Assembly: GCF_003347595.2 (NCBI RefSeq)
Contig: NZ_QCZK02000055.1
Location: forward strand, 186,001 to 250,000
Direction: 5' to 3'
DNA length: 64,000 nucleotides
DNA from: Botryobacter ruber
GTDB taxonomy: Bacteria; Bacteroidota; Bacteroidia; Cytophagales; Hymenobacteraceae
Shown here: piece by piece, positions 35,876 through 48,623 of the stretch
How positions within the stretch are numbered: the stretch's first letter is position 1
Layout: each line of letters starts with the position of its first letter
Program-made: the position numbers and the translations under genes
Notes under the pieces: model-generated
The model's database searches: none
Told to the model about the DNA's origin: nothing
Seen by the model: only the letters and a program-made list of their open reading frames with translations

Positions 35876-36886
35876 TTAGCGGCCGATTTTGATAGAGGTA
35901 CCTGCTTTTACGCCGGCATCTACTTTTACAGGCTTAGCAGCACCTCCGCCTATGTTTACAACTCTGGAAGGGCGTGCAGCACCTGGACGACCTGCACCCT
36001 GCGGACGACCGGCAGGAACTACACGGGCAGCTCCGGCAGCTCTGCCGGCAGTTTCAGTAGCGGCGCCGGCATCTACTTTTACCGGTTTTTCTTTGGCTTT
36101 AGTCTTGGCTACTTCTTTTACAGTTTCTGCTTTAACTTCGGTGTTGTGTGTTGCTTCTGTTGTAGCTTCACCTGCAGCTTCTTTGGTTCTCTTTGCTTCT
36201 TTTTTCGTTCCTTTCTGCTTGCCATTTTCTTGTTCCTGAGCAGGTCTTTCTGCTGAACCCTTGGCAGATGCCTCTGCCTCTGACTGGCCGTTTACAGAAG
36301 CAACTTCGCTGATAACCTGGCCTTTGCTTGACGTAGTGGCAGAAGCATCGAACGAATGAGCGGCTTCAGCTACTAAGCGGCCATGCGTGTCGCGCTTTTC
36401 TTTTTGCTGCTCATTTACAGCTCCTGCCGTTTCTTTGGCAGCCCTGCCAGCTCTTTCTTTTACATGGGTAGTGGCCTCCGTAGTGGCATTTACTGTAGTT
36501 TCGGTAGCTACTTCGGTTGTTGTAGCAGCCGATTCTCTGGCAGCTTCGCCTTTAGCCGTGGCCGTTGCTTTTACAGAACCTGAAGTCGTATGCGCTGCTT
36601 CGGCTACCGTCTGGCCATGGTTCTCTGCTTTTGTTTTGGCTTCCTTAGACTTTTCTTTCACTCTTTTAGCTTTCGATTTAGCCTTGTTACCTGCTTCTGC
36701 AACATCTTCAGTTGCTACAGTAGCCGTGGTGCCGGCCTGAACATCTCCGTTAGCTGCTACTCCGTTTTTGTCAGCAGAAACATGCTGGTTTGCGTTAGAC
36801 GCTGAATTTAATGTAGCCGTGTTAGACTGGGCAAAAGCAGTGCTGGTACTGATAAGGGCGGCAATTACAAAAGTTATCTTTTTCAT
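35876..36886 (-). CDS. exported Ala/Lys/Glu/Thr-rich low-complexity protein
   Basis: This 336-residue protein has a signal peptide (MKKITFVIAALISTSTAFAQ) and a highly charged, Ala/Thr/Lys/Glu-rich body without aromatic residues, resembling LEA or apolipoprotein-like helical proteins. A motif recurs three times: GQTVAEAAHTTSGSV, GRLVAEAAHSFDASA and GQVISEVASVNGQSE. The C-terminus is Gly/Arg/Pro-rich and repeats KPVKVDAG twice, ending SIKIGR. A periplasmic or surface role in envelope stress is a guess. A -7 box lies 32 bases upstream. Confidence 0.75.
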   Translation of the reverse strand: MKKITFVIAALISTSTAFAQSNTATLNSASNANQHVSADKNGVAANGDVQAGTTATVATEDVAEAGNKAKSKAKRVKEKSKEAKTKAENHGQTVAEAAHTTSGSVKATATAKGEAARESAATTTEVATETTVNATTEATTHVKERAGRAAKETAGAVNEQQKEKRDTHGRLVAEAAHSFDASATTSSKGQVISEVASVNGQSEAEASAKGSAERPAQEQENGKQKGTKKEAKRTKEAAGEATTEATHNTEVKAETVKEVAKTKAKEKPVKVDAGAATETAGRAAGAARVVPAGRPQGAGRPGAARPSRVVNIGGGAAKPVKVDAGVKAGTSIKIGR

Positions 36887-39078: not shown

Positions 39079-42000
39079 GTGAAAAACATCCTGAAAAACT
39101 ACCGCCGACGGCTCCTCAACCTGAGTTCCAGCAACAGGTCGCTGGTGCTGCTGCGCCTCTCCAGGGAGCAGCACCTGGATGTGCAGGAACTCGATTTCCT
39201 GCAGGATAAGCCTGCCTTTAATATCGTGCAGCAGGTAATCAGCGGGAAGAAAAAGATTGTCCTCAGCCCCTATGCCGACAGCCGCTACGCTCCCGTTACG
39301 CCCGTGAGCCGCAGGCTGCGCAACATCAGGCGCAAAGCCGACATGATTTTCGAGGAACGTGGCAGCAAGGAGCTTTTCCTGGGCTGGCCGTTTGTGCATG
39401 GCATGTTCCCGGACGGAACGGTGGTACGTTGTCCGCTGCTGTTTTTCCCGGTGCGGCTGCAGGTGAACGGGGCGCAGGAGTGGGAACTGCTGCCCGACGA
39501 GTCGCAGCCGCCGCAGTTTAACCAGAGCTTCCTGCTGGCTTACGCGCACTACCTGGGCACACCACTCGCCGAACCCTTAACCGAACTCGACCTCCAGACG
39601 CTCCCCCCGGACCCGCTGGCTTTCCGGACGGCCATTTACGAACTGCTGAAAGAGCACCAGCTGAAGGTGCATGCCGGGGCCGAATTCTTTGCCGACAAGC
39701 TCCATCCCTTCCGCGACTATAAAAAAGCCGATTTTGAAGAGAACCTGAAACCGGGGCAGCTGCACCTGGAGCAGGAGGCGGTGCTGGGGATATTCCCGCA
39801 GGCAGCTTCGTTTCTGCTCTCCGATTACGACGAGCTGCTGGAGCGTGAAGACCTGCAGGAGATGGAGCAATTGTTCCCGTTTACTGATGGCTTCGCCAAC
39901 ACCCTTGCCCAGAACACCTTCACGTTTCTGCCGATGGATGCCTCGCAGGAGGCGGCGCTGCAAACTGTAAAGCAGGGGAAATCGCTGGTGGTGCAGGGGC
40001 CGCCGGGAACAGGCAAATCGCAGCTCATCTGCAACCTAGTTTCGGACTTTACGGCGCGGGGCAAGCGGGTGCTGGTGGTGAGCCAGAAGCGGGCGGCCCT
40101 TGATGTGGTGCACCAGCGGCTCAGTTCCAGAGGCATGGGCAGCTTTGCAGCCCTTGTGCACGACATCAACGCCGACAGGCGCAGCATCTATAACCAGCTG
40201 GCGCAGCAAATAGAGCAGGTAGAAGAATACAAAAAGCAGAACCTCGCCCTTAACAGCATCTACACCGACCGCGTGTTCCTGGAAGTAAGCCGCGGCATCA
40301 ACCAGGCAACGCAGCGGCTGGAGGCGTTTAAGCAGGCGCTGTTCGATACGGGCACAAGTGGCTGGTCTGCCAAAGATCTTTACCTCAGGAGCAACCCAAG
40401 GCAGCCTTCGCTGTCGCTGGGCAATGCCTACAAACATTTTACGGCAGCTACGGTACCGGCTTTTCTTCCCCGTTTGCGGCAGTATTTTCAGCATGCGCTG
40501 GTGTTTGAGCAGGAAAGTTTTGTGCTCAAAAACCGCTACCCGATGCAGGGCTGGCACCTGGCGCAAAAGCAGGAATTAGAACAGCTTATCCGGCAGCTAC
40601 CGGGGCAGTACAAACAGCTGCAGGAAAAACTGGAGCAGCTGACAGGTTTTGCTTTTTCACTGGCGCAATTGCCGGCACTCCTGGCTGCTTTGCCTGTTAT
40701 AGCAGAATTGCAGCACCTGCTGCGCGAAGAGGAAGTAGATGAAGTGCTGCAAACGCTCCTGGAAAAGCAGGCAAAGCCTGTGGAGCTGAAGAAGCAGGTT
40801 GGCGAACTGAAGGATTTGTACCTGGTTTGTCCTGCTCCGGATGCCACCATACCCACTGCTCAGGTTCCTGCGGTAGCAGCAGCGATCAAGGAATATGATG
40901 CGCAGCAGGGGAACCTCTTGAAAAGCATCGGCTGGACTTTTTCGCCGGAAAAGAAGGTGCTGAAACAGGCGCTGGCAAAGTATAACTGGGAGCTGAACGA
41001 GGCGCAGGTGGGCAAACTGCAGCACCGCCTCGACCTGCACCGGCAGGCCCTGCAGCTCATGGAGCAGTTAAACCCGGTGCTGCCTTTCAACCTGAAAATT
41101 GAAGAACACCCCACGCCCATGCTGCGCAAGCTGGAGCTGGTAGAACAGGCGCTGGCAGCGCAGAAACTACTGAAGCAGCTGCACAAACAGCAGGTGCTGC
41201 ACGAAAAATACTACCCGGAAATCAACCTGAAAGAGCACCTGCACAAGCTGTCGCAGGCCATCTCCACCACCCACCATACCCACAGCAGCTGGCTAAAGGC
41301 CCTGCCGGAGGAACAGCTGCAGCTGCTGATTGCTGATGCTACACACGGCGCCAAACTGGAGCAGGCCCTGAAGCAGCACTTCGAACATTTGGTGGCCTAC
41401 GATACGCTGCAGGCATCGTTCCTGGAGGTGGAGCGGCAGGTAGTGACACTGCTGGTAGCGCAAAGGCTGCCAACGCCGGAAACAGGGGAGCAGCTGTTCC
41501 TGAACAGCCTCTACCTGGCCTGGCTGCAGGACATCGAGCAGCAGCACCCCGAGCTGCGCATGCCTTCCAACGGCGAGCTGGAGCGGGAAGAAGAAGAACT
41601 GCAGCGCCTGTTGCAGGAAAAAGAAAAGCTGAGCCAGGAGATGGTGCTCTCCAAGCTGCGGGAGCAAACCTACCGGAACATCGCGTACAACCGCCTGGGC
41701 AACGCTGTGACCTACCGGAGGCTGCTGGCGCAGGTAAGCAAGAAACGAAGCCTGTACCCCATCCGGAAGCTGTTTGCTCTTTTTGCATATGAGATGTTGG
41801 ACCTGGTGCCCTGCTGGCTGGCGTCGCCCGAGACCGTGTCGGCGGTGATGCCGCTGCAGGAATGTTTTGATTTAGTTATTTTTGATGAAGCCTCACAGTG
41901 TTTTGCCGAAACCGGTATCCCGTCTATTGTGCGGGGGCGGCAGGTGGTGGTGGCCGGCGATGCGCAGCAGCTTCAGCCATCGGACCTCTACCGCACCCGC

Positions 42001-43041
42001 TGGAACTCCGGCGAGGAAGAAACCGAAGAACTCTCCGCCGAATCGCTTTTGCAGCTCTGCACATTGCACCTGCCCCAGACTATGCTCACGCAGCACTACC
42101 GCAGCCGCTACCCCGAGCTCATCGAATTTTCGAACCTGCACTTCTATGGGCACAAACTGGAGCAGGTCCCGCACTTTGCCGATGCCACGGCAGGTACACC
42201 GGCCATCTCGTTTGTGCACGTGCCGAATGGGGTCTGGCAGGATAACACCAATTTGCCCGAAGCTGAGGAGGTTGTCAAGCTGGTGCTGAAGCAATTGGCA
42301 GCAGGAGAGGAGCAGGTAGGTGTGATTACCTTTAACTATAACCAGCAGATGCTCGTGCAGGACCTCCTCGAAGACACCCTGCGGCAGCAGGGGCGAGAGG
42401 TGCCGCCAACGGTGCTGGTGAAAAACATCGAGAACATCCAGGGCGATGAAAAAGAGGTCATCCTCCTCTCGGTAGGCTATGCACCTGACGAAAACGGAAA
42501 GCTCAAAATGCTCTTCGGCAGCCTGAATGCCGCCGGTGGCGAAAACCGCCTGAATGTGGCGGTAACACGGGCCAAGCAGCAGATATTTGTCGTCAGCAGC
42601 ATATTACCCGAACAACTGCAGGTTACGGAAACGCAGCATCCGGGCCCGAAGCTGCTGAAGGCCTACCTGGCCTATGCGCAGCAGGTAAGCCAGGGACTGT
42701 TTACGCCCAAACCACGCCACGCACAGGCGCCCGTCCACACCACGCTGCTGAAAGAAAAGCTGCAGCAGGAAACGCTGCCTGCCGGTATCACGCTCAAACC
42801 GGAACTGCCCTTCGCCGACTTAACTGTTTTGCAGCAGGGGCGCTACCAGGGGGTGGTGCTGACCGACGATGACCTGTACTACAGCCAACTCTCGGTGCGG
42901 CAGTCGCATGCCGATGTGCCGCAGCTCCTGCAACAGCGCCAGTGGCCTTACCGGCGGGTGTACAGCAGGCAGTATTGGGCAGCGCCGGAGGAGGTGCTGC
43001 AGCGCCTGGTGCAGGTGCAGCAGGAGGAAAAAAAGCGATGA
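39079..43041 (+). CDS. UPF1/DNA2-like superfamily 1 helicase, 1320 aa
   Basis: This large protein has an N-terminal DUF4011-like region, then a split AAA_11/AAA_12 helicase: Walker A VQGPPGTGKSQLICNLVSD (about residue 305), QKRAALDVVHQRL, Walker B LVIFDEASQCFAETGIPSIV (about 935), VVAGDAQQLQPSDLY, and motifs V-VI ENIQGDEKEVILLS and NRLNVAVTRAKQQIFVV. A long coiled, Gln/Leu-rich insertion fills about residues 370-880. The last 80 residues look like the C-terminal restriction-endonuclease-like domain of such helicases but lack its catalytic Glu. The start is GTG at 39079. Role may be repair or defence. Confidence 0.85.
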   Translation: MKNILKNYRRRLLNLSSSNRSLVLLRLSREQHLDVQELDFLQDKPAFNIVQQVISGKKKIVLSPYADSRYAPVTPVSRRLRNIRRKADMIFEERGSKELFLGWPFVHGMFPDGTVVRCPLLFFPVRLQVNGAQEWELLPDESQPPQFNQSFLLAYAHYLGTPLAEPLTELDLQTLPPDPLAFRTAIYELLKEHQLKVHAGAEFFADKLHPFRDYKKADFEENLKPGQLHLEQEAVLGIFPQAASFLLSDYDELLEREDLQEMEQLFPFTDGFANTLAQNTFTFLPMDASQEAALQTVKQGKSLVVQGPPGTGKSQLICNLVSDFTARGKRVLVVSQKRAALDVVHQRLSSRGMGSFAALVHDINADRRSIYNQLAQQIEQVEEYKKQNLALNSIYTDRVFLEVSRGINQATQRLEAFKQALFDTGTSGWSAKDLYLRSNPRQPSLSLGNAYKHFTAATVPAFLPRLRQYFQHALVFEQESFVLKNRYPMQGWHLAQKQELEQLIRQLPGQYKQLQEKLEQLTGFAFSLAQLPALLAALPVIAELQHLLREEEVDEVLQTLLEKQAKPVELKKQVGELKDLYLVCPAPDATIPTAQVPAVAAAIKEYDAQQGNLLKSIGWTFSPEKKVLKQALAKYNWELNEAQVGKLQHRLDLHRQALQLMEQLNPVLPFNLKIEEHPTPMLRKLELVEQALAAQKLLKQLHKQQVLHEKYYPEINLKEHLHKLSQAISTTHHTHSSWLKALPEEQLQLLIADATHGAKLEQALKQHFEHLVAYDTLQASFLEVERQVVTLLVAQRLPTPETGEQLFLNSLYLAWLQDIEQQHPELRMPSNGELEREEEELQRLLQEKEKLSQEMVLSKLREQTYRNIAYNRLGNAVTYRRLLAQVSKKRSLYPIRKLFALFAYEMLDLVPCWLASPETVSAVMPLQECFDLVIFDEASQCFAETGIPSIVRGRQVVVAGDAQQLQPSDLYRTRWNSGEEETEELSAESLLQLCTLHLPQTMLTQHYRSRYPELIEFSNLHFYGHKLEQVPHFADATAGTPAISFVHVPNGVWQDNTNLPEAEEVVKLVLKQLAAGEEQVGVITFNYNQQMLVQDLLEDTLRQQGREVPPTVLVKNIENIQGDEKEVILLSVGYAPDENGKLKMLFGSLNAAGGENRLNVAVTRAKQQIFVVSSILPEQLQVTETQHPGPKLLKAYLAYAQQVSQGLFTPKPRHAQAPVHTTLLKEKLQQETLPAGITLKPELPFADLTVLQQGRYQGVVLTDDDLYYSQLSVRQSHADVPQLLQQRQWPYRRVYSRQYWAAPEEVLQRLVQVQQEEKKR

Positions 43042-45024: not shown

Positions 45025-45909
45025 ATGAGAGAAACAATATTGGTAACGGGAGCCACAGGTACCGTTGGGAGAGAGATTGTAGCCCTGCTCTCCATGCTGG
45101 ATGTGAAAGTACGTGCCGGGGTCCATTCCATCATTAAAGGGGAAAACCTGAAACGGCTGCCAGATGTGGATATTGTAGAAATGGAGTTTGCGGCACCGGG
45201 TTCGCTTACGGCGGCTTTTACCCATGTCGATCGGGTTATGCTAATTACTCCTTTTACCGAGAACCAGGTGGCATTATCCAACATGTTGGTGGATGAAGCT
45301 GTGAAAGCAGGTGTAAAGCATATTGTAAAATTATCGATAGCAGGCGCTGAACAGGAGACAGGCGTTCAGGTGTTGCAGTGGCACCGTGAGGCGGAAGCAT
45401 ACATAGAAGCAAGCGGAATTCCGTACACTTTTTTGAGGCCTGCTTATTTTATGCAGAATTACTACAAATATTTCGGCGATACCATCAAAAAGGAAAATGC
45501 CTTTTATTTGCCCACCGGCAACGCACAGGTAGCTCTTGTAGATTCCAGAGATGTTGCCACTACTGCCGTTGCTGTATTAACCGGTACAGGTCATGAAGGG
45601 AAAGCCTATGAACTGACTGGACCAGAAGCTATTTCGAATGAACAGGTTGCTGCCCTACTGAGCCAGGTAACAGGGCGGGAGATAAACTATGTGGAGGTGC
45701 CGGCAGAAAAAGCACGAGAGGCAATGGTGGCCAGGCACATGCCTGAAAAACTGGCAGATGCGATGGTAGAACTTTACAGTGCCTACAAGGCCGGTTTTGG
45801 CACCCGGGTAACCAACACTGTTGCTGAAGTTTCAGGACGGGAGCCCTACACTTTCCAGCTCTTTGCCGAAGACTACAAGGATTGTTTTTCTGAGTCCGAA
45901 ACAAAATAA
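45025..45909 (+). CDS. NmrA/atypical SDR NAD(P)-binding reductase
   Basis: This 294-residue protein has an N-terminal Rossmann fold (ILVTGATGTVGREIVALL) and the NmrA-like segments VMLITPFTENQ, HIVKLSIAGAE, WHREAEAYIEASGIPYTFLRP and YELTGPEAISNEQVA. The canonical SDR YxxxK is missing, as in NmrA/HSCARG-type and quinone-reductase-like relatives. It may reduce quinones or sense NADP(H). A palindrome upstream suggests specific repression. A strong hairpin terminator follows the R1 pair. Confidence 0.85.
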   Translation: MRETILVTGATGTVGREIVALLSMLDVKVRAGVHSIIKGENLKRLPDVDIVEMEFAAPGSLTAAFTHVDRVMLITPFTENQVALSNMLVDEAVKAGVKHIVKLSIAGAEQETGVQVLQWHREAEAYIEASGIPYTFLRPAYFMQNYYKYFGDTIKKENAFYLPTGNAQVALVDSRDVATTAVAVLTGTGHEGKAYELTGPEAISNEQVAALLSQVTGREINYVEVPAEKAREAMVARHMPEKLADAMVELYSAYKAGFGTRVTNTVAEVSGREPYTFQLFAEDYKDCFSESETK

Positions 45910-45961
45910 TAAAGGCCGGCTTCAGGCTTAAATTTTCGGTGGTTTGCCTGCAAACAGTAGG

Positions 45962-45994
45962 AGCAAAGGCTATGGTGGCAGGGGCTGCAGAAAA
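45962..45994 (-). repeat. R1 dispersed repeat, left arm of a perfect inverted pair
   Basis: AGCAAAGGCTATGGTGGCAG (45962-45981) is the exact complement of 46022-46041. It is the CCATAGCC variant. Confidence 0.85.
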
Positions 45995-46014
45995 AAATTA
46001 CCTGGTTTCCGGGT

Positions 46015-46045
46015 TAAGCAGCTGCCACCATAGCCTTTGCTGCTG
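46015..46045 (+). repeat. R1 dispersed repeat, right arm of a perfect inverted pair
   Basis: CTGCCACCATAGCCTTTGCT (46022-46041). With the left arm it can form a 20-bp stem and 40-base loop in RNA from either strand. Confidence 0.85.
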
Positions 46046-46052
46046 TTAAAAC

Positions 46053-46110
46053 CAGCCACAAAAAAAACAGCCGCCTTCTGTTCGGAAAGCGGCTGTTTTT
46101 TTGTGGCTTT
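46053..46110. terminator. bidirectional terminator
   Basis: AGCCACAAAAAAAACAGCCG pairs with CGGCTGTTTTTTTGTGGCT, giving an A/T-rich lower and GC-rich upper stem, between convergent genes. Confidence 0.85.
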
Positions 46111-46121
46111 TACGCCTTAGC

Positions 46122-47999
46122 TTAGTCTCGGTCTAGATCCCGGTAGCGGTTGCTGCGCCTGCTCTGATGCTCCTGGTCCTCATCGTAATAGTTAGAGGAA
46201 CCGCTGCGCTGCGAACTACCCTGGTTTCTATTGTCTCCACGGAAATTCTCGCGGGAAGTAGAGCCCTTGTTGTCGCTGTAATAGGAGGTGTGGCTATCCA
46301 TAGAACCATAACGGCTCTGGTCGCCGCTGCGTCCGCCCTGGCTATAGCCGCCTTCGCGGTAGTCGCTCTGGCCGTAGTTGCCCTGGCTAGAACCATAGCC
46401 GCCACCGCTCATGCCGCGGCTGCTTTCGCCCCAGCTACCGCGCTGTTCTCTGCCATAGCCCGATGGAGAACCATAGCCAGACTGTCCGTAGCTGCTGCCG
46501 CGGTCGCCCCTGGATGAACGGTACTCATCGTTGTAAGAGCCGCCCCTGGAGCCGTAGCCGCCCTGGCTGCCATAACCACCCTGCATGTCGCGTTGCGAGC
46601 TGTAGCCTCTGCTGGAGCCATAATCGTCGCGGTCGTACTCCCGCATGTTTCTGAAGTCGGAATTGTTGCGGCCGTAACCATAGTCTCTGTTCTGGCCATA
46701 GTCGGAACGGCCATAGCTGGAGCCGCCACCAGAGGTGCTGCCGCCTTCGCCGTAGGAAGTGCCGCGGCTGTAATCGCCGGTTGCACCGGAACTGAAGTCT
46801 CTGTAGGAGCTTTGTCTGCCACGCGAAGAACTCATATCATCCCAGTCGCCGCGGGAACCATAATTGCTCTGGCTTCCCCAGTCGTCGCTGCGGTCGTGGT
46901 CGCCTCTGCGTGAGCCATAGGTGTCGCGGTCCTGCATTCTGCTGCTGTAGTCGCGGCCTGCATAGCCACCGCCGCTGATGCCGCGGTTGCCAAAGCCTTG
47001 TCCGCTTCGGCCGCTGTCGTAGCTGCCATAGCCGCCCTGTGCCGAGTTACCTTCCATCCCGAAAGCGCCTGAGGCACCACCATAGATGTTACCACCCTGC
47101 ATGTCGCCTTCCCGGTCCTGGTAGCCGCCCTGCATACCGCCTCTGGAAGCCCCGAAATCCTGGTCTTGGTTTCTGACACGGTTGCCTTCCATGCCTCCCT
47201 GGTTGCCGTAGTTGTAGCCGCCGCTGGAGCCCATGTTACCTTGCATGCCGTAGTCGCTTCCCTGCGAGCCATAGCGTGCGCTTCTGTTCCAGTCCTGCTC
47301 CTGCGAAGAAGAGCCATAGCCGCCGCTCTGGTTGCTGAAGCCGGTATTGTCGCCGTAGCCGCGTTGCATGCCGCCACCCTGCGAGGAGGAGCCATAATCG
47401 CCCTGGTAGCCATAGCCACTCTGGCCGCCATAGTTGCCATGTTGCGAGCCGTAGCCGTAGCCACCCTGGCTGCCATAGCCCCCTCTGTTGCCCTGTTGCG
47501 AGCCCCAGTCCTGGTTTCTGTCCTGTTGGGAACCCCAGTCCTGCTGTGCATTCCAACTGCCCTGGCCTCTCTGGAAATCTTTTTGCTGGCTGCTGCTGCC
47601 TTGTGCATATTGATCTGACGTGGCACCAGTGCTGCTCATAGCGCTGCTTCCTGCCTTCTGTGTGGTAGCGCTGCTTTTACTTTTTTTACCGGTTGAAGCA
47701 GAGGTGCCGGCAGTTGCTGTTGAAGCTTTGCCGCTCTTGCTGTCGGTTGTTTTGGCTTCTTTGCTGCTGGTGCTGGATTTTGCTTTTGTACCTGTTGTTT
47801 TAGAGTCAGATGCAGAAGCTTTACTGCTTTTGGCAGAACCGGAAGCTGACATCTGGCCTGTTGATGTGCCTGCTGTACCGGAAGCAGTAGGAGTGTTTGT
47901 GCGTGATGTATCCGTTGATGATGCTTTACTCTGATCGTTGAAGCCGCTTGAAGATGAGGACGGCTGGTTCATGTTCTGATCTTTTTCGTTGTCTTTCAT
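46122..47999 (-). CDS. Gly/Ser/Tyr/Arg-rich prion-like low-complexity protein (625 aa)
   Basis: No folded domain or signal peptide is visible. Residues 1-120 are Ser/Thr/Ala/Lys-rich (SKASASDSKTTGTKAKSSTS) and lack aromatics. Residues 125-625 are dominated by Gly, Ser, Tyr, Gln, Asp and Arg with roughly thirty YG dipeptides in [G/S/D]Y[G/S] contexts (GGYGSQGGYGYGSQ, SSYGQSGYGSPSGYG) and many SRG/DRG/RGG steps. This composition resembles the FUS/EWS/hnRNP prion-like plus RGG regions that phase-separate with RNA. A good Shine-Dalgarno-like AGGAG precedes the ATG. It is divergent from a cold-shock gene. Function unknown; condensate or desiccation/stress role is inference. Confidence 0.85.
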   Translation of the reverse strand: MKDNEKDQNMNQPSSSSSGFNDQSKASSTDTSRTNTPTASGTAGTSTGQMSASGSAKSSKASASDSKTTGTKAKSSTSSKEAKTTDSKSGKASTATAGTSASTGKKSKSSATTQKAGSSAMSSTGATSDQYAQGSSSQQKDFQRGQGSWNAQQDWGSQQDRNQDWGSQQGNRGGYGSQGGYGYGSQHGNYGGQSGYGYQGDYGSSSQGGGMQRGYGDNTGFSNQSGGYGSSSQEQDWNRSARYGSQGSDYGMQGNMGSSGGYNYGNQGGMEGNRVRNQDQDFGASRGGMQGGYQDREGDMQGGNIYGGASGAFGMEGNSAQGGYGSYDSGRSGQGFGNRGISGGGYAGRDYSSRMQDRDTYGSRRGDHDRSDDWGSQSNYGSRGDWDDMSSSRGRQSSYRDFSSGATGDYSRGTSYGEGGSTSGGGSSYGRSDYGQNRDYGYGRNNSDFRNMREYDRDDYGSSRGYSSQRDMQGGYGSQGGYGSRGGSYNDEYRSSRGDRGSSYGQSGYGSPSGYGREQRGSWGESSRGMSGGGYGSSQGNYGQSDYREGGYSQGGRSGDQSRYGSMDSHTSYYSDNKGSTSRENFRGDNRNQGSSQRSGSSNYYDEDQEHQSRRSNRYRDLDRD

Positions 48000-48165
48000 A
48001 GTATTGTTCTCCTGAGTTTTAGTTAATATAGTTTTGATTTATTGTTTTATTGTAGATGTTTTAAAGCATATCAATGGATTGATTTTCTGTTTTCAAGAAA
48101 GTTCAGGTGCAAGTCAATTTTGTTACAGACCGTTTAAACTATACGAGCACTTTAAGAGAGAGTTA

Positions 48166-48187
48166 TTGATATAGCGCGATATATCAA
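48166..48187. promoter_or_regulatory. palindrome 1 (TTGATATA...TATATCAA)
   Basis: Two perfect 8-bp arms around GCGCGA, a typical operator size for a dimeric regulator. Confidence 0.45.
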
Positions 48188-48431: not shown

Positions 48432-48623
48432 ATGAAAACAGGTAAAGTTAAATTCTACAATGTGTCTAAAGGCTTTGGATTCATCATCGCTGACGATACA
48501 AACCAGGACATCTTTGTACATCAGACAGGTCTGATCCACGAAATCCGTGAGAACGATCTGGTGTCTTTCGACGTGAAGGAAGGCAAAAAAGGATTGAATG
48601 CAATTAACGTAGAGAAAATCTAA
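48432..48623 (+). CDS. cold-shock domain protein
   Basis: This 63-residue single-domain OB-fold protein binds single-stranded RNA/DNA and melts RNA structure. RNP1 is KGFGFI at about residues 13-18 and RNP2 is DIFVHQ at 26-31. It starts MKTGKVKFYNVSKGFGFI and ends NAINVEKI. It has its own promoter and a strong terminator and is transcribed away from the prion-like gene. Confidence 0.95.
   Translation: MKTGKVKFYNVSKGFGFIIADDTNQDIFVHQTGLIHEIRENDLVSFDVKEGKKGLNAINVEKI

Follow-up and report, generated by a model that had tools for sequence, protein, structure and literature searches.

The window analyzed here, a stretch of 64,000 nucleotides, encodes on its minus strand a 625-aa low-complexity disordered protein, whose gene lies between a divergent cold-shock-domain (CSD) gene and a convergent NmrA-like gene (Table 1). 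The span 46122-47999 is interrupted by stops when read on the plus strand. On the minus strand, from 47999 to 46122, the 625-aa protein with a two-block composition that had been proposed in a preliminary description of this DNA was confirmed.

Table 1. Features in and around the gene for the 625-aa protein; positions refer to the window, residues to the protein.
Feature	Position	Strand	Remarks
Convergent NmrA-like NAD(P)-binding gene	45025..45909	+	Neighbour in 30/33 Pontibacter regions
Terminator-like hairpin	46061..46102	-	A/T runs flanking both sides; between the 625-aa gene and the convergent NmrA-like gene
CDS, 625-aa low-complexity disordered protein	46122..47999	-	ATG at 47999; match in 50 g1 genomes, own genome included
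C-block, residues 125-625	46125..47627	-	Gly/Ser/Tyr/Arg/Asp/Gln sticker-and-spacer composition
C-terminal motif 5, residues 613-623	46131..46163	-	SRRSxRYRDLD; alignment of 46 Pontibacter proteins
Motif 4, residues 561-588	46236..46319	-	QSRYGSMDS.TSYYSDN.GS.SREN.RG; alignment of 46 Pontibacter proteins
Family-wide core, residues 483-496	46512-46553	-	GSRGGSYNDEYRSS; end of motif 3
Motif 3, residues 452-496	46512..46646	-	C-terminal end is the family-wide core; alignments
Motif 2, residues 260-299	47103..47222	-	GGYNYGNQGGMEGNR...QGGYQDREGD; alignment of 46 Pontibacter proteins
Motif 1, residues 180-205	47385..47462	-	GYGYGSQ...GYGYQGDYGSS; alignment of 46 Pontibacter proteins
N-block, residues 1-124	47628..47999	-	Ser/Thr/Ala/Lys composition, net charge +9, Tyr absent; segregation of Lys and Arg in 67 family proteins
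Shine-Dalgarno site AGGAG	48009..48013	-	AGGAG in 44/46 Pontibacter
ECF-type promoter	48139..48167	-	-35 AATAAC 48162-48167, spacer 16 nt, -10 CGTATAG 48139-48145; distance to the ATG about 140 nt
Divergent cold-shock-domain (CSD) gene	48432..48623	+	Neighbour, not an obligatory partner

The N-block contains 13% Lys, about 1% Arg and neither Tyr nor Trp; the N-terminus had been described as free of aromatics, which holds apart from a single Phe (F20). The C-block consists of 24% Gly, 18% Ser, 10% Tyr, 10% Arg, 9% Asp and 15% Gln plus Asn, and Tyr residues of the protein are flanked on both sides by G, S, N, D or Q in 69% of cases. Of the RG/RGG-type steps described earlier, the block has 16 RG but only three RGG; 29 YG steps are also present. 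With so few RGG steps and a charge close to neutral (net -6, pI 5.5), RGG-type RNA binding by this block is weaker than claimed, and the Lys-rich N-block (net +9) would be the likelier polyanion binder of the two. The whole protein has 21% Gly and a GRAVY of -1.56, lacks Cys, and contains four Ile, Leu or Val residues (V275, I305, I341 and L622). A set of 956 non-overlapping open reading frames (150 aa or longer) was taken from 1.50 Mb of the same genome; the 625-aa protein, which is part of this set, ranks last in Ile/Leu/Val fraction as well as in entropy.

AlphaFold2, used with an alignment of 20 Pontibacter proteins, returned a mean pLDDT of 38.9, with none of the 625 residues at 70 or above. 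Together with the Tyr context and the composition this upholds the disordered sticker-and-spacer design; the reported lack of a hydrophobic core and of a signal peptide is likewise correct, since inspection of the sequence revealed neither a signal peptide nor a hydrophobic stretch at the N-terminus or elsewhere. Searches at curated cut-offs gave no Pfam match for the protein or for 15 family members and no NCBIfam match for four family members, and phmmer found no PDB chain with an E-value up to 1. Neither Pfam nor NCBIfam thus returned an RRM, a zinc finger or another folded RNA-binding domain, and the AlphaFold2 model contains no confident residue. Q/N-rich prion domains are recognized by 30 or more Gln plus Asn in 80 residues; the maximum is 22 in the 625-aa protein and 30-37 in three of the four Adhaeribacter-type proteins shown. 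The protein represents a new family of a known kind, the low-complexity disordered proteins, in an unusual stand-alone bacterial form. A literature search of limited coverage apparently yielded no paper on it, and a term search of the main text of a condensate-database paper did not find the name of the phylum (PMC12532770).

To describe the distribution, genomes were labelled by genus: g1 is Pontibacter, with which the own genome is counted, and g3 is Adhaeribacter, both Hymenobacteraceae; the others are g2, g4, g5 and g6. Pooling three family-wide queries and one follow-up, a member was found in 150/150 sampled Hymenobacteraceae genomes (50 g1, 8 g3, 74 g4 and g5, 18 g2 and g6), the g3 total being made up of six genomes from the family-wide query and two (G019 and G034) from the follow-up. 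Outside Hymenobacteraceae none was detected: profile A2 matched 7 of 291 and profile A3 50 of 390 genomes of the order, and profile A5 matched 4 of 395 genomes of the phylum, all of them within the family. Because every one of the three profiles also overlooks some of the Hymenobacteraceae, distant relatives elsewhere are possible. The 88 pattern matches in viral contigs included no relative. The Pontibacter set used below comprises 46 proteins (the 50 less G073, G117, G119 and G125). At the g5 locus L153 a 74-aa fragment stood in for the real 374-aa acidic protein; this locus counts as a miss in the tallies of core motif and promoter over 88 family members and is absent from sets of 87.

The 46 Pontibacter proteins, which are 565-717 aa long, share five ordered blocks that are nearly invariant. 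They have 77 invariant columns, and 72 of the 73 non-Met ones use at least two synonymous codons, which shows that purifying selection acts at the protein level. The core G[SN][RKQ]GGSY[NSGD][DE] is present in 85/88 family proteins, whereas all composition-shuffled controls lack it. Across genera little can be aligned beyond five columns that are invariant among 15 diverse members; the traits that persist are therefore short motifs, composition (with g5 as an exception) and position.

The distribution of charged and aromatic residues follows the two blocks. When the boundary was fitted for each of 67 family proteins, 849 Lys residues fell on the N side versus 20 on the C side, compared with 44 versus 2330 for Arg and 9 versus 3549 for Tyr. 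Misplaced Lys and Arg amounted to 2.0%, versus 26.6% when the order of Lys and Arg was shuffled and the same fitting applied. In the Tyr-Arg sticker model, the partner expected beside Tyr is Arg and not Lys. Aromatic residues are almost always Tyr, with Phe or Trp hardly present. The number of Tyr per protein is 59.1 ± 3.8 in the 46 Pontibacter proteins, a near-constant value next to the several-fold ranges of Asn (14-66), Ala (1-26) and Thr (7-37); RGG occurs 4.9 ± 1.8 times per protein and [FY]GG 4.9 times on average. Tyr residues are spaced more evenly than in shuffled sequences (P < 0.05) in all 46 Pontibacter proteins and in 19/21 other family proteins (the spacing ratio is 0.61 in the 625-aa protein), and Arg residues in none of the 46. 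The argument from the even spacing of Tyr is weakened because this spacing partly follows from repeat-like GYGSQ units. Aromatic residues and Arg are named as stabilising residues in simulations (PMC11163273).

Conservation of the composition in relatives, named as a check in the preliminary description, holds in most family members; the exception is an acidic type found in 14/87 family proteins, all from g5 (15/88 with L153 counted). These proteins are Pro/Ala-rich, 297-505 aa long, contain 10-18 Tyr and have a mean net charge of -28.6. The core motif is kept in them, and several other g5 motifs are common to the acidic and the Tyr-rich type. An additional Tyr-rich copy was present in only 2 of 25 g5 genomes searched, three further matches being copies at the slot, so that such a copy is no general compensation. 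Since the acidic, Tyr-poor form keeps the core motif, the stickers are dispensable in that part of g5, and a FUS-like composition is not indispensable family-wide. Either the sticker block was abandoned in that g5 lineage with the motifs still working, or the ancestral function lies in the motifs throughout the family.

Promoters of ECF sigma factors have the shape AAC at -35, a spacer of about 16 nt and CGT at -10. The corresponding pattern AAC-N15..17-CGTATA was detected in 77/88 family upstream regions: in 46/46 from Pontibacter, 2/2 from g2, 5/5 from g6, 6/6 of the Adhaeribacter type, 4/4 from g4 and 14/25 from g5, where some start codons were set mechanically and promoters may be hidden. 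In Pontibacter the spacer is N16 in 45/46 cases, and shuffling of the 46 upstream regions gave a mean of 0.47 matches. The consensus of the vegetative Bacteroidetes -7 box is TAnnTTTG. This box is found in none of the 46 Pontibacter upstream regions (250 nt; 3.6 expected by shuffling) and upstream of 34/159 other genes of the own genome; its reported lack is thus real, and the absence is conserved. The family-wide occurrence of the ECF-type promoter is compatible with the earlier label "stress-induced". Within 364 kb the pattern occurs three times, one occurrence being this gene, which is no more than for scrambled patterns (2-10). Scoring of 1.50 Mb of the own genome (26%) gave 13 matches of at least 11 bits versus 14-26 in shuffled sequence; the promoter of the 625-aa gene, with 25.6 bits, is the sole convincing one. 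The second-best match (L232, 21.0) was rejected because no gene lies there in the right orientation, and a match near a YgaP-like/SRPBCC gene (L193, 14.9) because the AAC is missing.

The Shine-Dalgarno (SD) site had been called strong; the AGGAG is indeed present, but it pairs with only moderate energy (-7.4 kcal/mol). A pairing energy of -7 kcal/mol or lower was calculated for 45/46 Pontibacter, 5/5 g6 and 2/2 g2 genes and for none of the 14 Adhaeribacter-type, g4 and g5 genes. This value is reached by 11 of 221 neighbouring open reading frames with ATG start in the Pontibacter regions (eight of the 11 are GldH) and by 15 of 251 in the own genome, the 625-aa gene included. In ribosomes of Bacteroidia the anti-SD is normally hidden, and a lack of bS21 is described as raising the translation of reporters that have a strong SD (PMC9976891). 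With the strong-SD mRNAs of bS21 autoregulation the gene shares a conserved SD under these conditions, whereas the extended SDs reported there lie below -13 kcal/mol (PMC9976891). Because the SD is weaker than the published ones, 15/251 open reading frames reach -7 kcal/mol and the own rpsU lacks an SD (-2.2 kcal/mol), translational control of the bS21 type is a lead only. A structured RNA was rejected: the five Rfam matches all stay below the gathering score (the best, Thr_leader with 32.2 of 55, covers the terminator region), and no consensus fold emerged for the 5' leader in Pontibacter. Likewise, high expression as judged by codon bias was rejected, since the gene is at the 72nd percentile, far from ribosomal genes.

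The gene occupies a defined chromosomal slot. In all 33 Pontibacter regions compared (15-19 kb) one flank consists of the cold-shock gene, an endonuclease/phosphatase-like gene, GldH and PSP1; on the other flank the NmrA-like gene is present in 30 regions and SdiA-like and helicase genes in 32. At least one flank is shared in 6/6 Adhaeribacter-type regions, and the slot is retained by the family protein in g6 (5/5 regions) and g4 (4/4). In g5, GldH or the cold-shock gene adjoins the family gene in 16/20 regions, and no matched neighbour surrounds it at L149-L152. In G011 no such protein was found at the slot itself, and G147 and G047 have an extra Tyr/Arg-rich copy away from it. A link to the cold-shock RNA chaperone had been drawn from its divergent orientation, which is correct for this locus; the cold-shock gene was, however, not found at the slot in any of the g6 and g4 regions examined, so that an obligatory partnership was rejected. 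The link is weakened further because the entire Pontibacter neighbourhood is a conserved backbone. Overall, the two-block, stress-type reading is supported by the sequence comparisons, and the RNA and cold-shock part of the earlier reading is weaker and stays putative, as does the suggested role in desiccation.

We propose, with a probability of roughly 0.4, that the protein is a stress-induced cytoplasmic disordered scaffold, in which Tyr/Arg stickers would drive condensation and motifs would recruit clients. An ECF-type sigma factor may switch the gene on under stress; the promoter element was computed, and the factor and the stress are what we infer from it. The mRNA also has the rare SD site in Pontibacter and two other genera. 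Composition, Tyr spacing and exclusion of Lys suggest that the Tyr/Arg block condenses via Tyr-Arg and Tyr-Tyr contacts separated by Gly/Ser/Gln spacers. The Lys block could tether polyanions such as RNA, and the linear motifs computed here, chiefly the GS[RKQ]GGSYND-like one, might dock specific clients. More doubtful is the extended proposal of a stand-alone condensate scaffold with a FUS-like Tyr/Arg grammar and no folded domain, which would act as an ECF-controlled stress granule seed, with selection maintaining the separation of the Lys tail from the Tyr/Arg body and with an acidic motif-only form arising by rewriting in one lineage. The presence of a version in every sampled Hymenobacteraceae genome, usually at one slot and behind a stress-type promoter, makes an important function of the protein probable. 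Counterpoints to a scaffold are the acidic g5 type, the repeat-derived evenness of Tyr, the absence of a regulon in the 1.50 Mb scored and the C-block net charge of -6.

Four other explanations follow in order of decreasing probability. The first, which we regard as unlikely, takes the protein as a hydrophilin- or LEA-like protectant, whose large hydrated chain would protect proteins or membranes in drying, freezing or salt stress and would form no defined compartment. High Gly, very low GRAVY, disorder and a stress-type promoter are shared with such proteins: Gly exceeds 6% and GRAVY is below -1 in 87/87 family proteins, which covers two of the three hydrophilin criteria (PMC4190154). The third is a mean hydrophilicity above 1, and here the value is 0.39 on the Hopp-Woods scale, from which the scale of the original authors may differ. 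The criteria (Gly, GRAVY and hydrophilicity) are moreover said to be insufficient alone (PMC4190154). A protectant is also consistent with the acidic Pro/Ala-rich g5 versions, which stay hydrophilin-like while losing the stickers, and with P. korlensis, a Pontibacter described as resistant to desiccation and radiation (PMC4460873). It predicts, however, neither the position-specific invariant motifs nor the segregation of Lys and Arg nor the constant number of Tyr, and Tyr/Arg stickers set the protein apart from hydrophilins.

The Tyr-poor g5 version favours, besides a protectant, a hub of linear motifs: a mostly soluble flexible tether whose short motifs bind partners such as RNA-decay, ribosome or envelope proteins, the rest being spacer. 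The core is kept in 85/88 proteins, the differently composed acidic ones included, and further g5 motifs are common to both types. Such a hub would nevertheless leave the constancy and spacing of Tyr and the Lys/Arg segregation unaccounted for, and the 1.50 Mb scored contained no second gene with a convincing promoter copy; we consider it improbable.

Resilin and spore-coat proteins are rich in Gly, Ser and Tyr. The similar composition, the almost exclusive use of Tyr among aromatics and the nearby GldH, a gliding-motility lipoprotein gene, would suit a structural Gly/Tyr-rich coat or tyrosine cross-linked matrix protein, but this would have to leave the cytoplasm by an unusual route: the protein has no hydrophobic N-terminus or segment, and no Por_Secre_tail or other Pfam domain was found in the 15 members scanned. 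The nearness of GldH carries little weight because GldH accompanies PSP1 even where the remaining slot genes differ. A coat or matrix protein is very improbable. A functionless, neutral low-complexity expansion can practically be discarded, for although repeat slippage can enlarge low-complexity genes and Pontibacter lengths do vary, the 150/150 presence, the conserved slot, promoter and SD, the motifs under purifying selection (77 columns with synonymous variation), the Lys versus Arg/Tyr segregation and the Tyr constancy speak against it.

The prion-like low-complexity domains of FUS, EWS and hnRNP proteins are eukaryotic, combine Tyr, Gly, Ser and Gln with RGG and accompany a folded RNA-binding domain. 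The 625-aa protein shares with them evenly spaced Tyr in a Gly/Ser/Gln context, Arg together with Tyr, the presence of Gln and Asn and the lack of a hydrophobic core. In contrast to them, it is bacterial, has few RGG, a separate Lys block and ordered invariant motifs, and neither a folded RNA-binding domain nor a PDB sequence match was found. In the same phylum, Bacteroides thetaiotaomicron Rho is described as having a disordered region with a prion-like subdomain, in which short conserved sequences control starvation-linked condensation (PMC13269538), a precedent for a condensing disordered region with short specific sequences. That region sits within an enzyme and has a KE-rich subdomain as RNA-dependent driver, whereas the 625-aa protein is stand-alone with Tyr/Arg stickers. 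The [FY]GG steps in Tyr/Gly-rich disordered stretches resemble the F/YGG motif of hnRNPA2, for which binding of nucleic acids has been measured (PMC9067507). The family offers a bacterial Tyr/Arg sticker protein in 150/150 sampled genomes, with 88 natural variants read and a defined slot and promoter. Such sticker proteins have been studied mostly in eukaryotes. With the g5 sister group having lost the stickers and kept the motifs, conservation of composition versus short motifs becomes directly testable in culturable bacteria, the resistant P. korlensis among them, and if the scaffold reading is true, the acidic motif-only g5 lineage would be a natural experiment that separates stickers from motifs.

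Disordered proteins of the Tyr/Arg kind appear to form a whole group in the genome containing this stretch. Four small ORFs (two of them in locus L245), encoding proteins of 183-328 aa, smaller than the 625-aa main protein, are rich in Arg, Tyr and Asp and poor in Lys and Ile/Leu/Val (K 0-4, R 32-59). None of the four has a Pfam match, and the ECF-type promoter of the main gene was not found within 300 nt of any of them. The L202 ORF contains SWFGDEDAERRRR, a motif known from other bacterial disordered proteins. Two genomes of genus g5 carry an additional Tyr/Arg-rich copy outside the usual chromosomal slot (G147:C22, locus L037; G047:C8, locus L173); the slot copy in both is of the short acidic type.

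Features in the window and in other loci (L) of the same genome
Feature	Position	Strand or location
Very low-entropy ORF, 336 aa	window 35876-36886	minus
DUF4011/AAA_11/AAA_12 helicase, 1320 aa	window 39079-43041	plus
Inverted repeat	window 45959-46044	between convergent NmrA-like gene and main gene
Small Arg/Tyr/Asp-rich ORF	L202:3909-4778	
Small Arg/Tyr/Asp-rich ORF	L245:2283-3269	
Small Arg/Tyr/Asp-rich ORF	L245:4020-4571	
Small Arg/Tyr/Asp-rich ORF	L207:2503-3429	

Besides the main gene, AGGAG starts were found only at L134:2101-2655, L134:3434-3988 and L137:4436-4963 among 208 ORFs of the same genome (ATG start, at least 150 aa); two of them lie in the ribosomal-protein cluster and one looks like a small heat-shock protein, the names being assigned by eye. 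The block directly 3' of the main gene's -10 element (window about 48121-48138) is conserved in most Pontibacter, with the genus consensus CTAAAACGTTCTGTTACAC, and could be an operator or a leader element.

The low-entropy ORF lacks Tyr, contains Asn/Ser/Thr/Ala repeats (SNTATLNSASNANQH...) and has no Pfam match; the protein looks secreted and, by eye, curlin-like. The helicase has a sub-threshold C-terminal match to the MTES_1575 nuclease; of 33 Pontibacter regions, 32 have this gene next to the slot. Arms of 28 nt, 89% complementary and separated by 30 nt, form the inverted repeat; a 19-nt piece of an arm had no exact match elsewhere in 249 loci searched, the three matching loci representing the same place. 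Upstream of L245:2283 there is a palindrome that resembles it by eye.
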